A stretch of DNA of 22,043 nt from a virus: positions 1 to 22,043 of the IMG/VR virus record IMGVR_UViG_3300030106_004130; one strand, written 5' to 3'. Below the pieces are notes generated by a model. That model saw only the letters and a program-made list of their open reading frames with translations. It was not told the origin of the DNA and did not search any database. A program made the position numbers and the translations under genes. Below are positions 80-12,377 of the stretch, in pieces (position 1 is the stretch's first letter; the number at the start of each line of letters is the position of its first letter).

Positions 80-1021
80 ATGGCTAACACTACTTCAAGG
101 TCTTATACTTTTGATAAGAACTTAGGCATAGACGAAATTATTGAAGATGCATATGAAAGAATTGGTATGCAAGGTGTTTCTGGCTATCAATTAAAAACTG
201 CAAAAAGATCTTTAAACGTTTTATTTTCTGAATGGGGTAATAGAGGACTTCATTTTTGGGAAGTAAAAAATCAAAACGTTACTTTAGTAGATGGTCAAGC
301 TACTTACAATTTTTATAGATCATCAAGTGATGGAACGTCTGATGGAGTTAGCACAACCCTTAGTGCAGGAATAAATGCAACAGCTACAACTATTGCGGTA
401 ACTTCTACAACTGGTTTTGCTACTTCAGGAACAATTTTAATTGGTACAGAAGAAATTACATATACAGCTATTTCAGGTTCAAATTTAACCGACTGTGTTA
501 GAGGAGTTAATGGTACAACTGCAGCTACTCACAGCACAGATGATGCTGTTGCTCAATCTCCAAGAGGAATGACAGACATCCAAGAAGCTAATTACAGAGT
601 AAAATCTACTTTTGTAGATACACCAATGACCAAAATTAGTAGATCTCAATACCAAGCTTTTTCTAACAAAACAGATAAAGGTTTGCCAACTCAATATTGG
701 GTACAAAGATTTATTGATAGAGTTAGTTTAACTCTATACTTAACACCGGGAGCAGCTCATGATGGAAATTATATTAATTTTTATTACACAAAAAGAATTG
801 ATGATGTAGGTGCATATACAAATGCTAGTGATGTTCCATACAGATTTATTCCTTGTATGATTACAGGACTTGCATTTTATTTATCTCAAAAATATGCACC
901 ACAAAGAACTCAAGAATTAAAAATGTTGTATGAAGATGAATTATTAAGAGCAGAAGATGAAGATGGTTCTTCTAATTCAACTTATATAGCACCTAAAATA
1001 TATTACCCTGGTGTTGCGTAA
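80..1021 (+). CDS. Head-tail adaptor/tail accessory-like virion protein with an inserted beta domain
   Basis: 313 residues. The N-terminal part (about 9-62) is helical, with the pattern DEIIEDAYERIG...A-x-x-SLNVLFSEWGNRGLHFW. I associate this pattern with podovirus-type connector or tail accessory proteins (P22 gp4-like); the assignment rests on pattern memory. Residues 92-157 are a Thr/Ser-rich beta insert (core IGTEEITYTAISG, then CVRGVNGTTAATH) that recurs in two other proteins of this window. The remainder (about 160-313) resumes with an aromatic-rich section and an acidic helical C-terminus (LYEDELLRAEDEDG). The start is set by TAGGAGG four bases upstream of ATG. The stop overlaps the next start as TAATG, so the two are probably translationally coupled. 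The role would be at the neck between capsid and tail. Confidence 0.7.
   Translation: MANTTSRSYTFDKNLGIDEIIEDAYERIGMQGVSGYQLKTAKRSLNVLFSEWGNRGLHFWEVKNQNVTLVDGQATYNFYRSSSDGTSDGVSTTLSAGINATATTIAVTSTTGFATSGTILIGTEEITYTAISGSNLTDCVRGVNGTTAATHSTDDAVAQSPRGMTDIQEANYRVKSTFVDTPMTKISRSQYQAFSNKTDKGLPTQYWVQRFIDRVSLTLYLTPGAAHDGNYINFYYTKRIDDVGAYTNASDVPYRFIPCMITGLAFYLSQKYAPQRTQELKMLYEDELLRAEDEDGSSNSTYIAPKIYYPGVA
353..550 (+). repeat. Inserted beta domain, copy 1 (protein level)
   Basis: This stretch encodes residues 92-157 of the adaptor-like protein. Order of features: a TTLSAGINAT start, an ITV-type strand, a GF-x-TSGT turn, IGTEEITYT, a short Ser/Asn linker, then RGVNGTTAATH. Copy 3 (in the 12484 gene) follows the same order closely, and copy 2 (in the 1021 gene) is more diverged. 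The similarity is at protein level; the DNA is not a recent duplication. Confidence 0.65.
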
Positions 1022-1815
1022 TGAGCAGTTTTTCACAAGGTAAATACGCTCTTGCAATATCAGATCGTTCCGGTCTAGCCTTTCCATATAATGAAATGGT
1101 AAGAGAATGGAATGGAGCCCTGGTTCATGTTTCAGAATTTGAGCCTAAACAACCACAGCTACAACCAAAACCAACTAATGCAGATCCACAAGCTTTACAA
1201 AGAGCTAGGCCTGCAAGAACAGAATTTCCAACTGAAGATTTTTTACCAGAAAACCCTTTAGTAACTGCATCTAATACTACTTTAAAAATTAATTTTCCAA
1301 ATGGAGATTTACAAGTAAACGATCAGATTAGATTACGTAATATTAAATCACCTGTTGGTGGAGTTGCACTTTCTACATTGCAATTATCTACAACTTTAAA
1401 TGGAGATATTACAGCTACCGCAGACTCAATTGTTTTAACAGATGGGTCACAATTTCCAACGAGTGGTTTTATTGTTATTGAAAAAGTAAATACTGATGGT
1501 TCTTTTGTAAACGAAACTATTGAGTACACAGGAAGATCTTCAAATACTTTAACTGGTTGTGTAAGAGGCACTTCTGCTCCTTACAGAGGAGTTACATTTG
1601 AAAACACTACAGCTGGCACACATGCAAATGGAGCAAAAGTTTTTGGATCTTATAAAGTAGTTTCTTTAAATACAACACAAGTGCTTGGAACAGGACAACC
1701 TCAATACAGCACTCAATTTGATGGATTAAATGTAACATTAATTACTGCTGCTAGCAGTACAGAAACAGGAGGCGGTTTTCAGTGTACAATTGGACCTGTT
1801 AATGATAGAGCTTAA
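1021..1815 (+). CDS. Virion structural protein, neck/tail region
   Basis: 264 residues, probably structural. The N-terminus has the block ALAISDRSGLAFPYNEMVREWNG followed by an EPKQPQLQP proline/glutamine segment (about 40-52). I recognise this pairing from phage structural proteins of unknown role. Residues 60-80 are rich in Arg and Pro. The C-terminal half is all beta. Residues 85-115 (TTLKINFPNGDLQVNDQIRLRN) resemble the HGL-x(2)-ND-x-I module seen near residue 118 of the 12484 product, and residues 122-208 carry the diverged second copy of the beta insert. The insert therefore seems to sit inside another beta module. The ATG overlaps the preceding TAA (TAATG). No catalytic motif is visible. 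Confident as a gene, weak as to precise role. Confidence 0.65.
   Translation: MSSFSQGKYALAISDRSGLAFPYNEMVREWNGALVHVSEFEPKQPQLQPKPTNADPQALQRARPARTEFPTEDFLPENPLVTASNTTLKINFPNGDLQVNDQIRLRNIKSPVGGVALSTLQLSTTLNGDITATADSIVLTDGSQFPTSGFIVIEKVNTDGSFVNETIEYTGRSSNTLTGCVRGTSAPYRGVTFENTTAGTHANGAKVFGSYKVVSLNTTQVLGTGQPQYSTQFDGLNVTLITAASSTETGGGFQCTIGPVNDRA
1384..1644 (+). repeat. Inserted beta domain, copy 2 (protein level, diverged)
   Basis: Residues 122-208 of the 1021 gene product. The landmarks are STTLNGDITATADSIVL, then FPTSGFIVIE, then ETIEYTGRSSNTLTGCVRG, then TTAGTHANGAKV. Compared with copies 1 and 3 it has extra residues between the two central strands and before the AGTH motif. The shared order of strands and of the RG...T-A-x-H motif argues for common ancestry. 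Confidence 0.5.
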
Positions 1816-2566: not shown

Positions 2567-3049
2567 ATGGCAATATCATCGGCAATATGCAACACCTTCA
2601 AACAAGAGTTGTTACAAGGAGGACATAATTTTAATACGTCCGGCTCAACACCTGCAGGAAATGCATTTAAATTAGCACTATACACAAGTTCAGCAAATAT
2701 GGATGCTACAACAACTGTGTATTCAACTTCAAACGAAACTTCAAATGATTCTGGATCAGCTTATTCTCCTGGTGGAAAAGCATTGGTGAACAATGGTGTA
2801 ACAGGAAGCTCATCAGCAACTACAGCTTATGTTGACTTTGCAGATTTATCGGGTGGAACTGCTTGGACTTCAGCTACTTTTTCAACAGCTGGATGTTTAA
2901 TTTATAACACAACTGCACTGTCTGGTTTTACAACTAATCGAGCAGTCTGTGTAGTTTCTTTCGGTGGAACTAAATCAGTTTCAGCAGGAACATTTACAAT
3001 TGAATTCCCAACAGCTAGTACAAGCGCAGCTATTATAAGAGTTTCATAA
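2567..3049 (+). CDS. Small beta-rich virion protein
   Basis: 160 residues, preceded by a clear AAGGAG ribosome-binding site. The first 20 residues are helical (AISSAICNTFKQELLQGGHNF). The rest is Ser/Thr/Gly-rich beta: FKLALYTSSANMDATTTVYS, a Gly-Ser linker, an ATTAYVDFADLSGGTAWTS block and a terminal strand set with FTIEFPTAS. I recognise this plan (short helix, KLALYT strand, ATF-x-TAGCLIYN strand) from small phage proteins found among tail genes, usually listed as structural or hypothetical. No enzyme motif and no signal peptide are visible. A tail or fibre-associated beta-sandwich protein is the best guess. Confidence 0.6.
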   Translation: MAISSAICNTFKQELLQGGHNFNTSGSTPAGNAFKLALYTSSANMDATTTVYSTSNETSNDSGSAYSPGGKALVNNGVTGSSSATTAYVDFADLSGGTAWTSATFSTAGCLIYNTTALSGFTTNRAVCVVSFGGTKSVSAGTFTIEFPTASTSAAIIRVS

Positions 3050-3062
3050 GGAGTAAGTCCTT

Positions 3063-4262
3063 ATGGCTGACAAAACAATTACAGTCACAGTAGGAAGCGG
3101 CACACAATATATCGTTGGCGGAACGGGTAACGTTTATTATTTTGACGGTTCCCAACCAACAAGTAATAAAGTCGATTGGGTTGTTGATGGTACAATAAGA
3201 TTAATTCAATCTGATTCTAGTAATGATAACCATCCGCTTTACATTACAACTAGTTCCAGCACTACTTTATCAACAGGTCAAGCAGCAGTGCAGACCTCAA
3301 ACATATCTTATTATTTAGATGGTGCTTCTAATCAAGCTAGTTATTATAATACCACCACTTTTAACGCTGCTTCAGTTCGATACGTAGAATTTAAATTACC
3401 TACAACTCAAAGTTATTGGTCATGTTGGATTCACGGAATTGGTATGGGTGGTTTTTGGAACGACACTACTACAACATGGGGTGCTTTAAATTGGAGTGAT
3501 GGTGAATGGGGTGAACAAGGTGATGCAACTGTTGCTATATCAAGCAGTTTTAATTTAACAACAGCTCTTAATGCAGCAGATGTTGCAGCAAACCCTTCTC
3601 CAGGTTGGGGTACAGAAGCATGGGGAGAAAACGGTTGGGGTAATGTTTTAGGTGGTACAGAAACTTTACCAACGTTTACAACTCTAAGCACTGCTTTAGG
3701 TACTTTAACTACAGCTGTTGAAACTCCAGTAGTTATAACAGACAGCTTTAATATAACTAGTGCTGTTGGAACAATAGACACTAAATTTGATTTTAATTTA
3801 ACTCTTACTGAAAGTTTATTAGTTTCTACCGCTCAAGGAACGTTAGATGTAAATGATGGATCAGATCAAGATGTTGGTTTAGAAAGCTTTAGTTTAACGA
3901 CAAATGTAGGTGCAATTGCTCCAAGTGACGTTGTAGGATTATCGTTGGATGAGGGCTTAACTACAAGAGTTGGCAATTTATTAGATGAAACAAGAACAGA
4001 CGTACCTATAACGTCCCCTGGTTCTTTAAGCACAACTTTAGGCACTTTAACAGTGCCATCTATGGCTGTAGGTATTACAGATAGCTTTAATTTAACAGGC
4101 ACAGTAGGGTCTATAAGTCCTATAGAACAGACCGTTGGATTAACTGGGCTTGAATTAACAACTGTTGTGGACGCTACACAATTAGCAACTACTGGATATA
4201 CAGATGTTGACATAACTGGAAATACATCTTATACAGACATTAAGCATGTAAATCAGGCGTAG
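3063..4262 (+). CDS. Modular virion protein: cupredoxin-like N-domain, Trp-Gly segment, tandem beta repeats
   Basis: 399 residues, AAGGAG site upstream. Residues 20-130 look cupredoxin-like: a Tyr-rich strand, a VDGTIRLIQSDSSNDNHPLYI block with His57, a YYLDGAS block, then SYWSCWIHGIGMGG, which supplies Cys121, His124 and Met128. The order His...Cys-x2-His-x3-Met is that of type-1 copper ligands; copper binding itself is not shown. Residues 131-197 are a Trp-Gly segment (WNWSDGEWGEQG, GWGTEAWGENGWGN) of a kind I know from marine phage structural proteins. Residues 209-370 hold repeats of about 25-35 residues built on SFNLTTAxGTL. The whole is likely a fibrous virion protein outside the neck. 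A promoter candidate for the next unit lies in its last codons. Confidence 0.65.
   Translation: MADKTITVTVGSGTQYIVGGTGNVYYFDGSQPTSNKVDWVVDGTIRLIQSDSSNDNHPLYITTSSSTTLSTGQAAVQTSNISYYLDGASNQASYYNTTTFNAASVRYVEFKLPTTQSYWSCWIHGIGMGGFWNDTTTTWGALNWSDGEWGEQGDATVAISSSFNLTTALNAADVAANPSPGWGTEAWGENGWGNVLGGTETLPTFTTLSTALGTLTTAVETPVVITDSFNITSAVGTIDTKFDFNLTLTESLLVSTAQGTLDVNDGSDQDVGLESFSLTTNVGAIAPSDVVGLSLDEGLTTRVGNLLDETRTDVPITSPGSLSTTLGTLTVPSMAVGITDSFNLTGTVGSISPIEQTVGLTGLELTTVVDATQLATTGYTDVDITGNTSYTDIKHVNQA
3687..4172 (+). repeat. Tandem degenerate beta repeats in the 3063 gene
   Basis: Residues about 209-370 repeat a short strand motif: LSTALGTL, FNITSAVGTI, LLVSTAQGTL, FSLTTNVGAI, LTTRVGNL, LSTTLGTL, FNLTGTVGSI, LELTTVVDA. 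Linkers vary, and several contain an ITDSF or VGL lead-in. The consensus is [LF]-x-[LS]-T-[TGS]-x-[LVA]-G-[TAS]-[LI]. At DNA level the copies are diverged, so this is an old protein repeat and not a recent tandem duplication. Confidence 0.7.
4207..4235 (+). promoter_or_regulatory. Candidate sigma70-type promoter before the fibre unit
   Basis: TTGACA at 4207-4212 and TATACA at 4230-4235 are separated by 17 bp, inside the last codons of the preceding gene. Transcription would begin near 4242, about 30 bases before the next start codon. The -35 box is perfect and the -10 box matches 4 of 6. TTGACA alone is expected several times by chance in a window of this composition, so spacing and location carry the weight. 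Confidence 0.4.
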
Positions 4263-5323: not shown

Positions 5324-8047
5324 ATGTCTAATGGCGGAATTATAGGACCTACACAAACAGTAACCGCAGCTCAAGCGGAAAAGAAAACAATCTTTAAATG
5401 TTCAGGAACATTTACATCGCAACCTGGAACTACTACAGCTAAAGTTTTAGTTGTTGGTGGTGGAGGTGCAGGTGGAAAAACTGGCGGCGGAAACGGCGGC
5501 GGTGGTGGAGGCGGCGGCCTTTTATTGGGTTGTAAAACTATTTCAGGTGGAACATCTTATGCTGTAACAGTCGGAGCAGCAGGACAATATACAGGACCAG
5601 GAGATACAACAGCTGGTGGAAATTCAGTTTTTGATGTTTGCGGAGCAAGTCCAGATGGAGCAGCTACTGCAAATGGTGGTGGTCTTGGTGGTAACAACGA
5701 TAGAAATCAATGTGGTGGTGCTGGAGGATCTGGTGGTGGCGGAGGCGGTGCTGGTAATGATAGTCCAGGTTCTGCTAGTCAATCTCCTTCAGGAGGTTTA
5801 ACAGGTTATGGAAATGCTGGTGGACCAGGAAGTCCAACAGGTACAGACGCTGCAGGTGGTGGAGGCGGTGCTGGTGCAGCAGGTACTGCAGAAAATGCAC
5901 CTAATGCTGGTGGTTGTGCTGGAATAGGTAAAAGTGCATATGACGTAGTTGGAACAGAATTTGGAGAAGCAGGATTTTTTGCTGGTGGTGGATCAGGCGG
6001 AGGTAATGTTACTGGTGCTGGTGGTATGGGTGGTGGAGGATTTGGATCTACACCATGCGTAAGAGCTAACAGCGATGGCGGTAATGTTATAGCTTCATCT
6101 GGAGGTGGAGGCTCAGCAAATGTATATAGTGGTGCTGGTCGTTGTGGTAGTAAGGGTGTTGTAATTGTAAAAGAAGCAGGACAACAAGCTGCAGCTCCAG
6201 GTATTTGGTCAATATGTGAAGTTTATTGTAAAGTAAAATCAGATAATTGGGTAAGTGCAGGACCTGCAGGTGGACCTTTAGATTTCTTTTTAGTAGCTGG
6301 TGGTGGATCAGGTGGTGATGGTGGAACCGGTGAAGCTGGTGGTGGAGGCGGAGCAGGTGGTGTCGTTAAGTCTTATGATAACGTAGATTTTACAAAAGTT
6401 GATGCAACTCCAGGGACTTATTGCGTAACAGTTGGAGCTGGTGGAGTACCAGCAGCATCAGGACCGGGTGGTGGAAACACTGTTGGTGGTTCTGGTGGAA
6501 ATACAATATTTGCATATACATGCACTCACACTGCTTATGGCGGTGGAGGCGGAGCATCCGGTGGATCAGCTGCACCAAAAGCTGGAACAGGTGGTTCTGG
6601 TGGTGGAGGAAACGGACGTTGTGGTCCAGGAACTCCAGGTAACTCAACTGGTCAAGCTGGTAATACACCTGCAATTGCAGGATGTGCTGGAGGACCTCAA
6701 GGAAATACTGGTGGTAATGGAGTTCCACCTTATGGTAACGCTGGTGGTGGAGGTGGTGGAGCTGGTCAAACAGGATCTAATGGACAAAACTCTCCACAAA
6801 ACATGGGTGGAGAAGGTGGTGCAGGAGTTATTTCTGGAGTAAGTGGAAGTGGTAGATTTTATGCTGGTGGCGGCGGTGGTGGAGTTCAAACTACTCCTTC
6901 AGGAACATTAAGTGGTTTAGGTGGTGTAGGTGGTGGTGGTCAAGGTCAAAAAGGCGGACCAAGATGTTCTGGAAACGCAGAAGAAAATACTGGTGGTGGA
7001 GGTGGAGGAAATGCTTCTGGCCCAGGATCAGGAGTTTGTGGTTGTGGTGGTAAAGGTGGTAAAGGAGTAGCTTTCTTTAGAAGTGGTGTAGGCTTAACTG
7101 CAGCACCAGGATGTAATACTTCTTTCTACGATGGTCAACATTGGGTTGCTAAATTTAAAACTACTGGAACTCTTACAGTTGGATCAAGATCTGTACCTTC
7201 TCATTCATTTGATTATTTAGTAGTTGGTGGTGGAGGAGGTGGTGAAACTAACCAAGGAGGAGGTGGTGGAGCTGGTGGTTATCAAACATCTTTTCCAGGT
7301 GGTAAAAAATTATATTTAAATCCAGGATCTAACACAATTCAAGTTGGAGCTGGTGGAGCTGGAGGAAGTTATCCTCAAAATAGTGCAAGTAGTGGTGAAC
7401 CTTCATCAGTAGGATTTATAGAATCTATTGGTGGTGGAAAAGGTGGTGGTAATCCAAGTATTTTTACTGGAAGAGGTGGAACCGGAGGATCTGGAGGTGG
7501 TGGAGGATCAGTATCACCATGTAATGTAAGATATGGTAGAGGACTAGTTGGTTTTGATCAGATTCAAGGAAACCCTGGAGGAAGTGGTCAAGGAAGTCCA
7601 GCTTATGGAGGCGGTGGCGGTGGTGGAGCAAACGCTAGAGGAGGAACCGTTACAAGTTCAAGTGCTGCTGGTGGAGCTGGTGGAGCTGGTAAAACAAATT
7701 GTATAACAGGATCACCTGTTACATACGCTGGTGGTGGAGGCGGTGGAGCTGGAGGTCCGGCACCTGCTGCTGGAGCTGGTGGAGCTGGTGGAGGTGGAGC
7801 TGGAGGAAAAGCTTCAGCTAACGGAACTGCTGGAACTGTAAATACTGGTGGTGGTGGCGGAGGATCAATGTGTGGTCCTGCTGGAGTTGCTGGTGGATCA
7901 GGGATTGTTATTTTAAGAGCACCTGGACCGGCTGGCCCAAGCTATACTGCAGCCCCAGGAACTAACACAAAAACAACATTACCTGCGCCTGCTGGAGGAT
8001 GTACGGTATTGACATTTACTGTAGATGGTACGTTGACAATAAGTTAA
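5324..8047 (+). CDS. Large glycine-rich tail adhesin, three domain copies, cysteine-rich
   Basis: 907 residues; AGGAGG lies upstream of ATG. The N-terminus, SNGGIIGPTQTV, shares the SNGGIIG block with the 8557 product and is a likely attachment peptide. Three glycine-rich domains follow (about 40-285, 318-587, 629-867). Each opens with a hydrophobic strand such as VLVVGGGGAGG or YLVVGGGGGG, has a middle TVG strand and closes with a strand such as VVIVKE or GIVILR. Linkers include GIWSICEVYCKVKSDNW. The C-terminus ends GTLTIS. Such polyglycine proteins form polyglycine-II helix bundles in known phage adhesins (phage S16 gp38), so a receptor-binding tail role is plausible. By my count it has about 21 cysteines, concentrated in the first two domains, and about 16 Pro-Gly pairs. 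It is glycine-rich in a different way from collagen: there is no strict Gly every third residue. Confidence 0.75.
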   Translation: MSNGGIIGPTQTVTAAQAEKKTIFKCSGTFTSQPGTTTAKVLVVGGGGAGGKTGGGNGGGGGGGGLLLGCKTISGGTSYAVTVGAAGQYTGPGDTTAGGNSVFDVCGASPDGAATANGGGLGGNNDRNQCGGAGGSGGGGGGAGNDSPGSASQSPSGGLTGYGNAGGPGSPTGTDAAGGGGGAGAAGTAENAPNAGGCAGIGKSAYDVVGTEFGEAGFFAGGGSGGGNVTGAGGMGGGGFGSTPCVRANSDGGNVIASSGGGGSANVYSGAGRCGSKGVVIVKEAGQQAAAPGIWSICEVYCKVKSDNWVSAGPAGGPLDFFLVAGGGSGGDGGTGEAGGGGGAGGVVKSYDNVDFTKVDATPGTYCVTVGAGGVPAASGPGGGNTVGGSGGNTIFAYTCTHTAYGGGGGASGGSAAPKAGTGGSGGGGNGRCGPGTPGNSTGQAGNTPAIAGCAGGPQGNTGGNGVPPYGNAGGGGGGAGQTGSNGQNSPQNMGGEGGAGVISGVSGSGRFYAGGGGGGVQTTPSGTLSGLGGVGGGGQGQKGGPRCSGNAEENTGGGGGGNASGPGSGVCGCGGKGGKGVAFFRSGVGLTAAPGCNTSFYDGQHWVAKFKTTGTLTVGSRSVPSHSFDYLVVGGGGGGETNQGGGGGAGGYQTSFPGGKKLYLNPGSNTIQVGAGGAGGSYPQNSASSGEPSSVGFIESIGGGKGGGNPSIFTGRGGTGGSGGGGGSVSPCNVRYGRGLVGFDQIQGNPGGSGQGSPAYGGGGGGGANARGGTVTSSSAAGGAGGAGKTNCITGSPVTYAGGGGGGAGGPAPAAGAGGAGGGGAGGKASANGTAGTVNTGGGGGGSMCGPAGVAGGSGIVILRAPGPAGPSYTAAPGTNTKTTLPAPAGGCTVLTFTVDGTLTIS

Positions 8048-8556: not shown

Positions 8557-10395
8557 ATGGCCAGATCAAATGGCGGTATAATCGGAAAAAAGAACCCAAC
8601 CTCTTTTGGTAAATGTACCGTTACATCTAAAACATCCTCAGGAAATGTTACAACAGACTCAGGAACTAGACTTATAGATACTCTTATAGTTGCTGGTGGT
8701 GGAGGTGGTGGTAAAGGAACTGGTGCTGGTGGTGGCGGCGGTGGATATAGACAAATTTCATGTATTAGTGTTTGTGGATCAACTGCTTATGCAGTCACTG
8801 TTGGAGGTGGTGGAGCTGGAGCAGGACCTACTAGAGGTCAAGGTAGTCAAGGTATTGGTTCAGTATTTAATCCAAGTGGTTCAGAAGGAATATCAAAATT
8901 TACAACAACTGGTGGTGGAGGTGGAGGTGGACAACCTCCAAATGGACCTGTCGATGGTGCACCAGGTGGTTCAGGTGGAGGAGCGGCTAATAATGGAGCA
9001 CCTACTGGATCAATTGGAACAGGAAATACTCCCCCATTTAGCCCATCACAGGGAAATAATGGAGGAGCTACTGTTGCTGAAAGAGGTTCTGGTGGTGGAG
9101 GAGGCGCAGGAGCTGTTGGAGTAGATGGCACTGGTGGAGCTTCTTCTTCAGATGGATCAGGCGGAGCAGGTGGTGCTGGTTCAACAAGTAATATTACAGG
9201 ATCTTGTGTAACTTACGCTGGCGGTGGCGGTGGAGGTCATCACAATAATGGTGGTCAAGGAGCAGGTGGATCTGGCGGCGGTGGAGCTGCATCTAAAACA
9301 GGTGCTGGGACAGCAGGAGGCACTAACACTGGAGGTGGTGGTGGCGGAGCTTCTGATTATCCATCCCCTGGTAATGGTGGTGCAGGTGGTCCAGGAATCG
9401 TAGTCATAAAAGAATTAACAAAAGCAAGTGGTGTGTGGTCAATGCAAAGTCAATTTCAAGCTAAGAAAGAAGGGTCATGGCCAAGCTTAGTACAAACATA
9501 TAGTTTAGATTATTTAGTAGTAGCTGGTGGTGGAGCAGGTGGATATTTCAAAGGTGGTGGAGGTGGAGCAGGAGGTTTTAGAACTTCCGAAGGAAGCCCT
9601 GCCCCTATAAATGGGTGTACCATGACTTTTACCAATGTAGCTGTTGGATCAACTTATGATGTAACAGTTGGTGGTGGAGGAACAGCTACGCCAACTCCAA
9701 GCCCTCAAGCTGCTGGCGCTGGAACTAATTCAGTATTTAACCCAGGTGGTTCAGAAGACACTACAATGATTACATCGTCTGGTGGTGGATATGGTGGTAA
9801 CCAATCTGCTCCAGGTACTCCTCCGGGATCAGGGGGATCAGGAGGATCAGGAGGTGGTGCTTCTGATACAACTTCAGGACCTCATGTAGGATCAGGAAAT
9901 ACTCCTCCTCAAACAAAACAACAAGGTAACCCTGGTGGTGTAGGACGAGCAAGTCCTCCGTCTGCTGGTGGTGGTGGAGGTGGTGCCGGCGGTGCTGGTA
10001 GTGGTGCTCCTGGAAATGGTGGAGCCGGTGGTGTAGGATTAGAAAATGATATTACAGGATCTCCAGTTTTCTATGCTGGAGGTGGTGGTGGATCTGGAAA
10101 TGGAACTGGTGGTGCTGGCGGAAACGGTGGTGGTGGAGCAGGAGGAAATGCTCCTAATGGTGCTGGAACACCAGGTACTTCAAACACTGGCGGTGGTGGA
10201 GGTGGTGGTGCGCCTGCAGCAACTCCTCCGGGACCAGGATCAGGTGGGGGTAATGGTGGCCCAGGAATTATTGTTCTTAGAGGACCAAGTGCACTTACAT
10301 TTAGTGTAACACCTGGAACTAACTCAACTTCAACTCACCCAGGTGGTGACAAATTAGCTACATTTACAGTTACTGGAACATTGACAGTCGAATAA
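8557..10395 (+). CDS. Second glycine-rich tail adhesin, two domain copies
   Basis: 612 residues; AAGGAG precedes ATG. It begins ARSNGGIIGKKNPTSFGKC, sharing SNGGIIG with the 5324 product. Two glycine-rich domains (about 38-288 and 317-577) carry parallel blocks: TLIVAGGGGGG / YLVVAGGGAGG, a TVGGGG strand, SVFNPxGSE, a GNTPPxxPxQGN turn, ITGSxVxYAGGGGG, NTGGGGGGA and a closing GIVVIK / GIIVLR strand. The linker GVWSMQSQFQAKKEGSWPS separates them, and the end is VTGTLTVE. The same order of blocks in both copies indicates internal duplication. It has about 5 cysteines, far fewer than its paralogue, but also many X-Pro-Gly sites. A receptor-binding tail role is inferred, possibly as an alternative or companion adhesin. 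Confidence 0.75.
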   Translation: MARSNGGIIGKKNPTSFGKCTVTSKTSSGNVTTDSGTRLIDTLIVAGGGGGGKGTGAGGGGGGYRQISCISVCGSTAYAVTVGGGGAGAGPTRGQGSQGIGSVFNPSGSEGISKFTTTGGGGGGGQPPNGPVDGAPGGSGGGAANNGAPTGSIGTGNTPPFSPSQGNNGGATVAERGSGGGGGAGAVGVDGTGGASSSDGSGGAGGAGSTSNITGSCVTYAGGGGGGHHNNGGQGAGGSGGGGAASKTGAGTAGGTNTGGGGGGASDYPSPGNGGAGGPGIVVIKELTKASGVWSMQSQFQAKKEGSWPSLVQTYSLDYLVVAGGGAGGYFKGGGGGAGGFRTSEGSPAPINGCTMTFTNVAVGSTYDVTVGGGGTATPTPSPQAAGAGTNSVFNPGGSEDTTMITSSGGGYGGNQSAPGTPPGSGGSGGSGGGASDTTSGPHVGSGNTPPQTKQQGNPGGVGRASPPSAGGGGGGAGGAGSGAPGNGGAGGVGLENDITGSPVFYAGGGGGSGNGTGGAGGNGGGGAGGNAPNGAGTPGTSNTGGGGGGGAPAATPPGPGSGGGNGGPGIIVLRGPSALTFSVTPGTNSTSTHPGGDKLATFTVTGTLTVE

Positions 10396-10424: not shown

Positions 10425-11051
10425 ATGAACTTATTTAATTATTATTGGTATTTTCAATCAGCAATTCCTCATAGAGTATGTGATGATATTGTTCGTTATG
10501 GAAAACAATTAGCTGATCAAATGGCTGTTACTGGTGGATATGGTGATCCTACAAAATTAAATAAAAAAGAAATACAAGATTTAAAAAAGAAAAGAGATTC
10601 TAATATTGTGTGGATGAGCGATAGATGGATATACAGAGAAATACAACCATATGTAAATAGAGCTAATAATGATGCTGGTTGGAATTTTCAATGGGACTGG
10701 TCTGAACCATGTCAGTTTACTAAATACACTAAAGGCCAATATTATGATTGGCATTGTGATTCATGGGAACACGCATACGATAAACCAAACACAGCATCAC
10801 ATGGTAAAACAAGAAAACTGTCTGTAACAGTAACTTTATCAGATCCAAAAGAATATAAAGGTGGTGAATTAGAATTTGATTTTAGAAATCAAGAACCTAA
10901 TAAAAAACCTAACATTAGGAAATGCACAGAAATATTACCTAAAGGTTCTTTAGTAGTATTCCCATCACATGTATGGCACAGAGTCTGTCCTGTTAAAAAA
11001 GGATCAAGATATAGTTTAGTAATATGGAACCTAGGATGGCCGTTTCAATGA
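10425..11051 (+). CDS. 2-oxoglutarate/Fe(II) dioxygenase, prolyl hydroxylase-like
   Basis: 208 residues. Members of this superfamily use Fe(II), O2 and 2-oxoglutarate to hydroxylate a substrate, releasing succinate and CO2. The double-stranded beta-helix core is visible: FTKYTKGQYYDWHCD gives the HxD pair His110/Asp112, then KLSVTVTLSDPKEYKGGELEF, then LPKGSLVVFPSHVWHRV with distal His185, then SRYSLVIWNLGW with Arg195, the likely 2-oxoglutarate carboxylate binder. This set fits PKHD/P4H-like enzymes and is complete, so activity is plausible. The substrate cannot be read from sequence. It is first in a three-gene oxygenase cassette just after two adhesin genes, which suggests a virion or host-surface protein as substrate. 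An alternative is modification of nucleic acid or a small molecule. Confidence 0.85.
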   Translation: MNLFNYYWYFQSAIPHRVCDDIVRYGKQLADQMAVTGGYGDPTKLNKKEIQDLKKKRDSNIVWMSDRWIYREIQPYVNRANNDAGWNFQWDWSEPCQFTKYTKGQYYDWHCDSWEHAYDKPNTASHGKTRKLSVTVTLSDPKEYKGGELEFDFRNQEPNKKPNIRKCTEILPKGSLVVFPSHVWHRVCPVKKGSRYSLVIWNLGWPFQ

Positions 11052-11755
11052 AAAAAAATAAAAAACAAAAAGATAAATTAATGTATCCTAAAGAATTAAA
11101 TAAGGATGAATTATTTAAATGTCCTGTGTGGTATGCAGATGAACCACAATTTGTAAATACATTAAATAAAGCATCAGACAAATATATTGAAGAATCTAAA
11201 AAAAATTTAAAAAAATCTATAGATGAACGTAATAAAAAATTTGGTAATAAAGGAGATATGGGTCACGTTTTTCACTCAACAACTTTATTAGGTGATCCTA
11301 ATTTTACAGAACTTACAAACTACATAGGAGCTACCGCACATAATTTATTAATTGAAATGGGTTTTGATTTAAGTAATTATCAAGTGTTTACTACAGAAAT
11401 GTGGGTACAAGAATTTGCTAAAAAGGGTGGAGGACATCACACATTACACACACATTGGAATGGTCATATATCTGGTTTTTATTTTTTAAAAGCTAATGAT
11501 GCAACATCTAGACCAATATTTGAAGACCCTAGAGCAGGAAATGTAATGAATCTTTTACCAGAAAAAGATAGATCAAAAGTAACATATGCATCCTCACAAA
11601 TTAATTATGAGGTTAAACCAGGAAGAATGATATTCTTTCCCTCTTACATGCCACATCAATATATGGTAGATATGGGATATGAACCATTTAGGTTTATACA
11701 TTGGAATTGTCAGGCTATACCGAAAGGAGTATTAAATGTCGTTCAAAAAAAATAA
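11048..11755 (+). CDS. 2-oxoglutarate/Fe(II) dioxygenase-family protein (TIGR02466-like)
   Basis: 235 residues from the ATG at 11048, chosen because it overlaps the previous stop as ATGA, with AGGA eleven bases upstream. An in-frame ATG at 11024 would add eight residues and overlap more deeply. The N-terminal 60 residues are Lys-rich and helical. The core has FTTEMWVQEFAKKGG, then a HHTLHTHWNGHISGFYFL strand (His134 and His136 are candidate metal ligands, with the SGFYFL strand following). Next comes VKPGRMIFFPSYMPHQY with distal His203, then FRFIHWN with Arg215. This arrangement matches the family of putative phage and bacterial 2OG-Fe(II) oxygenases of unknown substrate. The first ligand pair is H-x-H in place of H-x-D, as I recall for that family. 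It belongs to the same operon as its neighbours. Confidence 0.75.
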   Translation: MKKNKKQKDKLMYPKELNKDELFKCPVWYADEPQFVNTLNKASDKYIEESKKNLKKSIDERNKKFGNKGDMGHVFHSTTLLGDPNFTELTNYIGATAHNLLIEMGFDLSNYQVFTTEMWVQEFAKKGGGHHTLHTHWNGHISGFYFLKANDATSRPIFEDPRAGNVMNLLPEKDRSKVTYASSQINYEVKPGRMIFFPSYMPHQYMVDMGYEPFRFIHWNCQAIPKGVLNVVQKK

Positions 11756-12377
11756 ATATCAAGTTTTAAAAAAAACTATAAGTAAAGAGTTAGCAGATTT
11801 TTGTTATGCTTACTTTTTAAACAAAAGAAAGGTAGCACGATTTTTATTTGATGAAAAATATATATCTCCATTTACTGAATATTTTGGAATATGGAGTGAT
11901 CCCCAAGTTCCCAATACTTATTCTCATTACGCTGACATAGTAATGGAAACTTTATTACAAAAAGTAAAACCTGTAATGGAAAAAAATACAGGGTTAAAAT
12001 TATCTGAAACATATTCTTATGCAAGAATTTACAAAAAAGGAGATATACTAGCTAGACATAAAGATAGATTTAGTTGTGAAATATCTACTACATTAAATTT
12101 AGGTGGAGATCCATGGCCTATATATTTAGATCCTACTGGTAAAATAAGTCAAGCTGGTATTAAAGTAGAATTAGATCCAGGAGACATGTTAATATATTCT
12201 GGATGTGATCTTGAACATTGGAGAGAAGAATTTATAGGTAAAGATTGTGCTCAAGTTTTTTTACACTACAATAAAAAAGGTTCTAAATCAGCAAAAGAAA
12301 ACGAGTTTGATACAAGACCGTTTTTAGGTTTACCTGGTTATTACAAAGGTGCAAAGTTGACAAAACCTAAGAAATAG
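11736..12377 (+). CDS. 2-oxoglutarate/Fe(II) dioxygenase, phage P4H-like
   Basis: 213 residues. Its start lies 20 bases inside the previous gene, with AAGGAG just upstream of ATG. The core reads SYARIYKKGDILARHKDRFSCE with His108/Asp110 as the HxD pair, ISTTLNLGGDPWPIYLD, then VELDPGDMLIYSGCDLEHWREEF with distal His161, then CAQVFLHYNKKG. This succession is that of phage-encoded prolyl 4-hydroxylase-like proteins. The basic residue expected after the distal His is less obvious than in the first cassette member (Lys169 is a candidate). The C-terminus is short and basic (GAKLTKPKK). The three cassette proteins differ in length and motif spacing, so they are separate subfamilies and not a recent triplication. 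The substrate is unknown. Confidence 0.8.
   Translation: MSFKKNKYQVLKKTISKELADFCYAYFLNKRKVARFLFDEKYISPFTEYFGIWSDPQVPNTYSHYADIVMETLLQKVKPVMEKNTGLKLSETYSYARIYKKGDILARHKDRFSCEISTTLNLGGDPWPIYLDPTGKISQAGIKVELDPGDMLIYSGCDLEHWREEFIGKDCAQVFLHYNKKGSKSAKENEFDTRPFLGLPGYYKGAKLTKPKK

Follow-up and report, generated by a model that had tools for sequence, protein, structure and literature searches.

The window analyzed here is the whole of a 22,043-base virus record (IMGVR_UViG_3300030106_004130, positions 1 to 22,043). It carries an open reading frame at 3063 that encodes a 399-residue protein and is preceded by AAGGAG at 3048-3053, nine bases upstream of its ATG. The original prediction had placed a cupredoxin-like copper-ligand pattern in this product, and the interval concerned (3120-3452) does correspond to residues 20-130; the reading frame was present, with His57 in NDNHPLYI and Cys121, His124, and Met128 in SCWIHGIGMGG, as predicted. 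The features of the locus that are used below are as follows.

80..1021, plus strand: neighboring gene, PHROG 12985.
1021..1815, plus strand: neighboring gene, PHROG 28581 anchor, with another domain instead of the cupredoxin domain.
3063..4262, plus strand: coding sequence of 399 amino acids (ATG start, open reading frame list), with an N-terminal cupredoxin-like domain and a repeat-rich remainder.
3063..3458, plus strand: cupredoxin-like domain, residues 1-132 (AlphaFold2 model, PDB matches).
3231..3233, plus strand: codon of His57, predicted first equatorial ligand (N-x-HPL; invariant in the 55-row alignment described below and aligned with the cupredoxin His by hhalign).
3423..3425, plus strand: codon of Cys121, predicted thiolate ligand (invariant in the same alignment; hhalign).
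3432..3434, plus strand: codon of His124, predicted second equatorial ligand (invariant in the same alignment; hhalign).
3444..3446, plus strand: codon of Met128, predicted axial ligand (invariant in the same alignment; hhalign).
3477..3641, plus strand: Trp-rich segment (WGALNW..GWGTEAWGENGW) 3′ of the cupredoxin-like domain (sequence).

Gene 3063 lies between adaptor and tail-fiber-like genes: upstream are an SU10-type adaptor gene (PF24175, E = 1.7e-19) and a PHROG 644 gene, and downstream are a PHROG 31104 gene and glycine-rich PHROG 2295 genes. The PHROG 2295 proteins (5324-8047 and 8557-10395, tail region) are very glycine-rich, with long poly-Gly stretches. The product of gene 12484 was nearest to proteins of 023Pt_psg01 and of Pelagibacter phages HTVC023P and HTVC027P (39-48% identity). 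HTVC023P (26.9 kb examined) has homologs of genes 80, 1021, 1818, and 2567 and none of 3063; gene 3063 is thus an accessory part of the region. Three adjacent genes of the window (10425-12377) were homologous to HTVC023P gp65-gp67, with 10425 and 11024 identified by Pfam as 2OG-Fe(II) oxygenases; 11736 had no Pfam match, and its homolog is labeled putative ferrochelatase.

The cupredoxin-like domain was found in several gene contexts. A homolog of window gene 1021 followed by the domain on its C-terminal side accounted for 40 of the 153 domain-bearing open reading frames, and an N-terminal copy with W motifs, the arrangement of the window gene, accounted for 40 of the 153. In phage 023Pt_psg01 the domain is N-terminal to a homolog of window gene 80, and it also occurs in baseplate and tail-fiber genes of other phages. 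The fusions to homologs of neighboring genes indicate that the domain moves among neighboring virion genes. It has also spread across marine phages that are unrelated to one another. The 3063 product is a candidate virion protein on the basis of its gene neighborhood and of the fusions to virion-gene homologs.

The 3063 product contains a single Cys (Cys121), three His (57, 124, and 395), and three Met (1, 128, and 334). A disulfide role for Cys121 was rejected because the protein has one Cys. The order of the ligands was that of plastocyanin and amicyanin, as originally proposed, but their spacing was not, since C-x2-H-x3-M equals neither and falls between the two (C-x2-H-x2-M in amicyanin, C-x2-H-x4-M in plastocyanin). 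In the wider phage family, the His-to-Met spacing was x2 in 116 domains and x3 in 23. The pattern C-x(2-4)-H-x(2-4)-M arose in 93 of 200,000 shuffles of the 3063 protein, and the same pattern with a His 31-91 residues upstream of the Cys arose in 23 of 200,000 (approximately 1 in 9,000). Among the window's 55 open frames of at least 70 codons, the ligand pattern was also present in a second, apparently non-coding frame. The ligand pattern by itself is not decisive. A chance motif was rejected as a reading on the shuffle counts, the invariant alignment columns, and the all-or-none conservation of the ligands described below.

Structure prediction, one of the checks suggested with the original prediction, gave the window domain a cupredoxin fold, modeled as a Greek-key β-sandwich of approximately eight strands (AlphaFold2 with 55 sequences, pLDDT 88, pTM 0.84; strands at residues 4-14, 21-27, 44-48, 59-62, 81-85, 106-111, 117-121, and 125-132). 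In the model, Cys121 closes one strand, His57 stands immediately ahead of a strand, His124 is located in the turn to the last strand, and Met128 is located in or just past that turn; the placement of the four residues along the predicted strands fits a type-1 copper site. When the model was compared with the PDB by Foldseek, 49 of the 50 rows shown were copper proteins by title, and the remaining row was factor VIII. The A domains of coagulation factor VIII share the cupredoxin fold. The best Foldseek E-value was modest (3.3e-3), with zero PDB matches below 1e-3. All 50 rows shown by VIA-align were copper proteins, counting 6h5y, a laccase titled only "PM1 mutant". The best VIA-align match was rusticyanin 2cal (Z = 7.3, rmsd 3.4, 111 aligned residues), with a Z in the range that VIA-align calls common, and none reached Z ≥ 8. 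Laccases were also found among the PDB structure matches.

A relative nearer to the family consensus, located at the start of a W-repeat protein (L090), was modeled with a pLDDT of 96.4. Its best VIA-align match was the N-terminal domain of the Hyphomicrobium nitrite reductase (Z = 9.7, rmsd 2.4, 96 aligned residues), and 22 chains had Z ≥ 8. Foldseek gave two matches below 1e-3 for this relative, the best being modest (E = 6.9e-4), and its list also included 11 rows of SO1698 (aspartic peptidase) and one row of a prothrombinase complex. Among viral models, the window model matched cyanophage structural and tail fiber proteins, with E-values down to 3.5e-8.

For comparison with cellular proteins, ten PF00127-type proteins were gathered from host-type genomes, eight of them classical. 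The 55-member phage family aligned with the ten proteins at E = 2.1e-9 (hhalign, score 55.6), with the four ligands in register, and with the eight classical proteins at E = 2.6e-6 (score 38.1); none of 200 column-shuffled controls scored above 18.1 and 21.7, respectively. Masking the four ligand columns lowered the scores to 23.1 (just above the shuffles, ten-protein set) and 14.7 (not above the shuffles, eight-protein set), and the sequence link therefore depends strongly on the ligand motif. The nine-member subfamily of the window alone had no match with the classical cupredoxins (hhalign E = 0.055, score 15.5), and the link to cellular cupredoxins is therefore transitive, via the wider family.

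The window protein matched no Pfam family below E = 1 and did not reach the cut-off of PF00127 (Copper-bind), and PF13473 (Cupredoxin_1) had no match in the window. No NCBIfam model matched the protein, and PHROG and PDB-sequence searches with it alone gave nothing usable. Neither the domain nor its close relatives are covered by a dedicated family in Pfam, NCBIfam, or PHROG; the PHROG matches of relatives were stretches within long tail and baseplate profiles. Three of the 55 family members matched PF00127 weakly (best E = 0.021). Two giant phage open reading frames (L026 and L036) exceeded the Copper-bind cut-off (24.3 and 22.9 vs. 21.2) through other cupredoxin copies. L036 scored 21 bits with PF13473 (cut-off 27), and a related domain in giant phage open reading frames matched positions 18-99 of 99 of the plastocyanin model (E = 1.1e-4, below the cut-off of that model).

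Two cellular proteins have motifs near that of the phages: L142 (SHPFYI...YYYVCSPH; Copper-bind, 32.9 bits) and L144 (IHPFRI...YVYQCQVH; 19.0 bits, below cut-off), and copies of this kind were found inside both L026 and L036. Three marine bacterial proteins (L123, L126, and L127) combine a lipoprotein-like start with a cadherin domain and the same cupredoxin-like domain, and these starts suggest an extracytoplasmic role for the domain in cells as well. When PDB sequences were searched with a relative and with the family profile, most matches were antibody and Ig chains with weak E-values; for the family profile the best was LRIG1 (E = 6.3e-4), and one pseudoazurin was found at E = 0.73. These Ig matches were dropped because the structure-match lists disagree with an Ig reading. 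The plant-named family PF25489 (At5g54830-like) weakly matched phage copies (L129, L150, and L157; best E = 3.6e-4), a hint of an unrecognized cupredoxin relation.

All four ligands were kept in the close relatives (L002-L009, 88-92% identity) and in the more distant ones (L010-L012, 52-54% identity). A scan with patterns free of the four ligand residues gave 35 loci. A profile scan of IMG/VR gave at least 590 related stretches, of which the best 80 were retained, skewed towards one subfamily; because the scan pattern demanded the HP of the first His (Cys, His, and Met being outside the pattern), conservation of His57 is inflated among those loci. An initial scan of bacterial and archaeal genomes gave zero relatives, and a scan of bacterial and archaeal genome contigs with a wider profile found 17 loci. 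Of 50,697 annotated phage records, the copy of phage S-B68 matched 178, and the related C-terminal domain of the S-SSM5 gp9-like baseplate protein matched 338. Nearly all matching records were marine cyanophages, and the S-B68 query also matched some Pelagibacter and Methylophilales phages.

In marine T4-like cyanophages, the gp9-like baseplate wedge/tail-fiber connector has a C-terminal cupredoxin-like domain (AHPFRI...YYQCTIHAAMQGTINV), and the copies of S-SSM5 (L150:1-336) and S-CAM22 (L157:2-352) have the four ligands and the last strand. A 168-residue protein of S-SCSM2R (L164, 1282-1788) with the gp9-type domain is labeled PetE and is possibly a tail-gene relative named as a plastocyanin. 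The giant tail-type open reading frames L026 (2-8236) and L036 (2-8332) contain five YHYH stretches together with several cupredoxin-like copies, of which four have the C-H-M motif and others are ligand-free. The portions consulted of the virion proteomes reported for cyanophages S-SM1, S-CREM2, and S-SCSM1 tied no detected protein to the domain. No description of the domain was found in the openly accessible literature searched.

Conservation of the ligands was all-or-none. The alignment of 55 rows (20-87% identity to the window), from which ligand-lost copies had been excluded beforehand, had six invariant columns: S53, H57, C121, H124, M128, and G129. When domains were located with a profile ending before the Cys, 166 were found, with HCHM at the ligand positions in 141, YCYY in 10, KGGF in 10, and HSGE in 5. 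Twenty hand-picked stretches of public phage records (S-B68 included; HTVC023P held no domain) had 26 domains, of which 20 were HCHM and the others KGTL, QATH, HSDH, DATM, and, twice, NSNY. Among the pooled 191 domains (duplicate S-B68 removed), 160 had four ligands, 17 had one, 14 had none, and 0 had two or three. Thus the residues did not vary freely in homologs, a point that the original prediction had left to be checked. The same trend was found in 80 clusters at 80% identity (68 with four ligands, 5 with one, 7 with none). When the four columns were shuffled independently among 65 clusters, on average 30 clusters had two or three ligands, and zero was reached in 0 of 10,000 shuffles.

Related sequences do not count independently, but losses occurred at several domain positions, namely at three in the giant open reading frames, in the second of the copies of cyanophage gp7-like genes, and in the PSS2 protein. 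In 12 ligand-lost representatives the scaffold was largely retained (F47 in 12 of 12, Y45 in 11, S53 in 11, and G87 in 10), whereas H57 was found in 2, C121 in 2, H124 in 0, and M128 in 1. The YCYY copies have three ligands replaced by Tyr in a nearly unchanged flanking sequence (SDSSNxGYPF, YYCSLYSGYG). The ligands were kept or lost jointly, as expected of one shared metal site.

We consider it probable that residues 1-132 form a cupredoxin with a full type-1-like ligand set, likely holding one copper, and that this cupredoxin is a mobile decoration displayed on a tail-region protein. A cupredoxin domain with an intact predicted site is well supported; occupancy of the site by copper, uptake of the metal outside the cell, and a role in contact are what we infer. 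The chain would fold metal-free in the reducing cytoplasm of the host and would acquire copper once released into oxic seawater, or else at the host envelope. Copper binding may then stiffen the last loop (CWIHGIGMGG), and this loop could form the surface that contacts the host envelope or a neighboring virion protein. Because sister copies on one and the same chain have lost the whole site but not the scaffold, we regard the scaffold itself as probably structural or adhesive and the metal as probably an added stabilizing or contact feature. Electron transfer by the domain is possible but less likely than a decoration module with a working copper site, and no electron-transfer partner was visible in the window.

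The original prediction had also allowed for a cupredoxin-derived fold that no longer binds copper. This holds for the sister copies, but with its full ligand set it is not the likelier reading for 3063. A domain that binds no copper in nature, with the four residues serving packing or hydrogen bonding in a structural or adhesive β-sandwich, seems to us unlikely, even though ligand-free copies with the scaffold kept are widespread (31 of 191 domains), which shows that the fold does not depend on the site. Many Ig-like decoration domains occur in phage tails, which also agrees with a purely structural role. Packing residues, however, would be expected to go singly, and no domain with two or three ligands was found; in the YCYY copies, moreover, three ligands have become Tyr in nearly unchanged surroundings.

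A genuine site for another metal (zinc, iron, or nickel), or one acting mainly as a Cu(I) store or carrier and not as a redox type-1 site, appears improbable. Cupredoxin sites accept other metals in vitro, but one Cys, two His, and one Met in a cupredoxin fold are the classical copper set, and zinc sites seldom use Met. Zinc would also agree with the YHYH domains of phage tails (PF14240), which co-occur in the giant open reading frames and are described, in the portion of the source used here, as a predicted zinc hydrolase (PMC7824862). Like the cupredoxin-like domain, YHYH is predicted to bind metal in tail and baseplate proteins of marine phages, but it belongs to another Pfam family and has another predicted site. 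An Ig-like or other common phage-tail β-sandwich that resembles a cupredoxin by chance, to which the antibody and Ig chains with weak E-values in phmmer and profile searches of PDB sequences would point, was already disfavored and is very improbable, since structure searches gave copper proteins almost exclusively, the ligands are in register with PF00127 proteins, and related domains in giant open reading frames pass the Copper-bind cut-off or, in one case, match the plastocyanin model (E = 1.1e-4).

The favored reading, a cupredoxin decoration likely holding copper, can be compared with known systems. The ligand order His...Cys-x2-His-x(2-4)-Met is common to the phage domain and the plastocyanin/azurin family (PF00127, including amicyanin and pseudoazurin), and in the model the Cys likewise ends the penultimate strand of a Greek-key β-sandwich. 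The first His is followed by Pro in the phage domain and mostly by Asn in the classical PF00127 members collected. Unlike PF00127 proteins, the phage domain is fused to a repeat-rich protein and has no signal peptide in its sequence. The best structural matches were rusticyanin (2cal, 1rcy) and the N-terminal domain of the three-domain nitrite reductase of Hyphomicrobium denitrificans (2dv6, 6tfo), with 9-17% identity in the best-matching rows. Rusticyanin and the Hyphomicrobium nitrite reductase are periplasmic redox proteins, and the rusticyanin loop is longer (C-x4-H-x4-M).

A free photosynthetic plastocyanin was ruled out because 3063 encodes several domains and lies in the tail region of a phage with HTVC023P and HTVC027P as relatives, and because Pelagibacter is not known to carry out oxygenic photosynthesis. 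The cyanophage plastocyanin PetE is treated, in the portion of the source used here, as an auxiliary metabolic gene and read as part of photosynthetic electron transport in the infected cell (PMC3037559). PetE is likewise a cupredoxin encoded by marine phages, but the 3063-type domain is part of tail and baseplate genes. An overview of jumbo phages (PMC7824862) uses none of the words cupredoxin, copper, plastocyanin, and azurin in its main text. A study of pelagimyophages places YHYH among putative receptor-binding proteins and, in the sections consulted, mentions neither copper nor plastocyanin (PMC7029224).

The analysis offers a fold and a candidate chemistry for a domain found in hundreds of records annotated as hypothetical protein, tail fiber, or baseplate wedge. 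It is a tentative suggestion that marine phage particles are copper proteins. If so, each tail or baseplate subunit of cyanophages, and of phages infecting SAR11 and other marine bacteria, would hold one or several copper sites. These sites would be filled after lysis with copper from seawater or from the host envelope, and the bound copper, or its reduction at the host surface, would be needed for particle stability or as a trigger of attachment. Tandem copies would then be metal-loaded and metal-free versions of one module, side by side, and the natural copies that have the fold but have lost the whole site are ready-made controls. A link between phage infectivity and trace metals via copper in tails was not found in the literature searched. 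A filled site would mean that copper is present in the tails of a widespread class of ocean phages, linking their infectivity to trace-metal chemistry.
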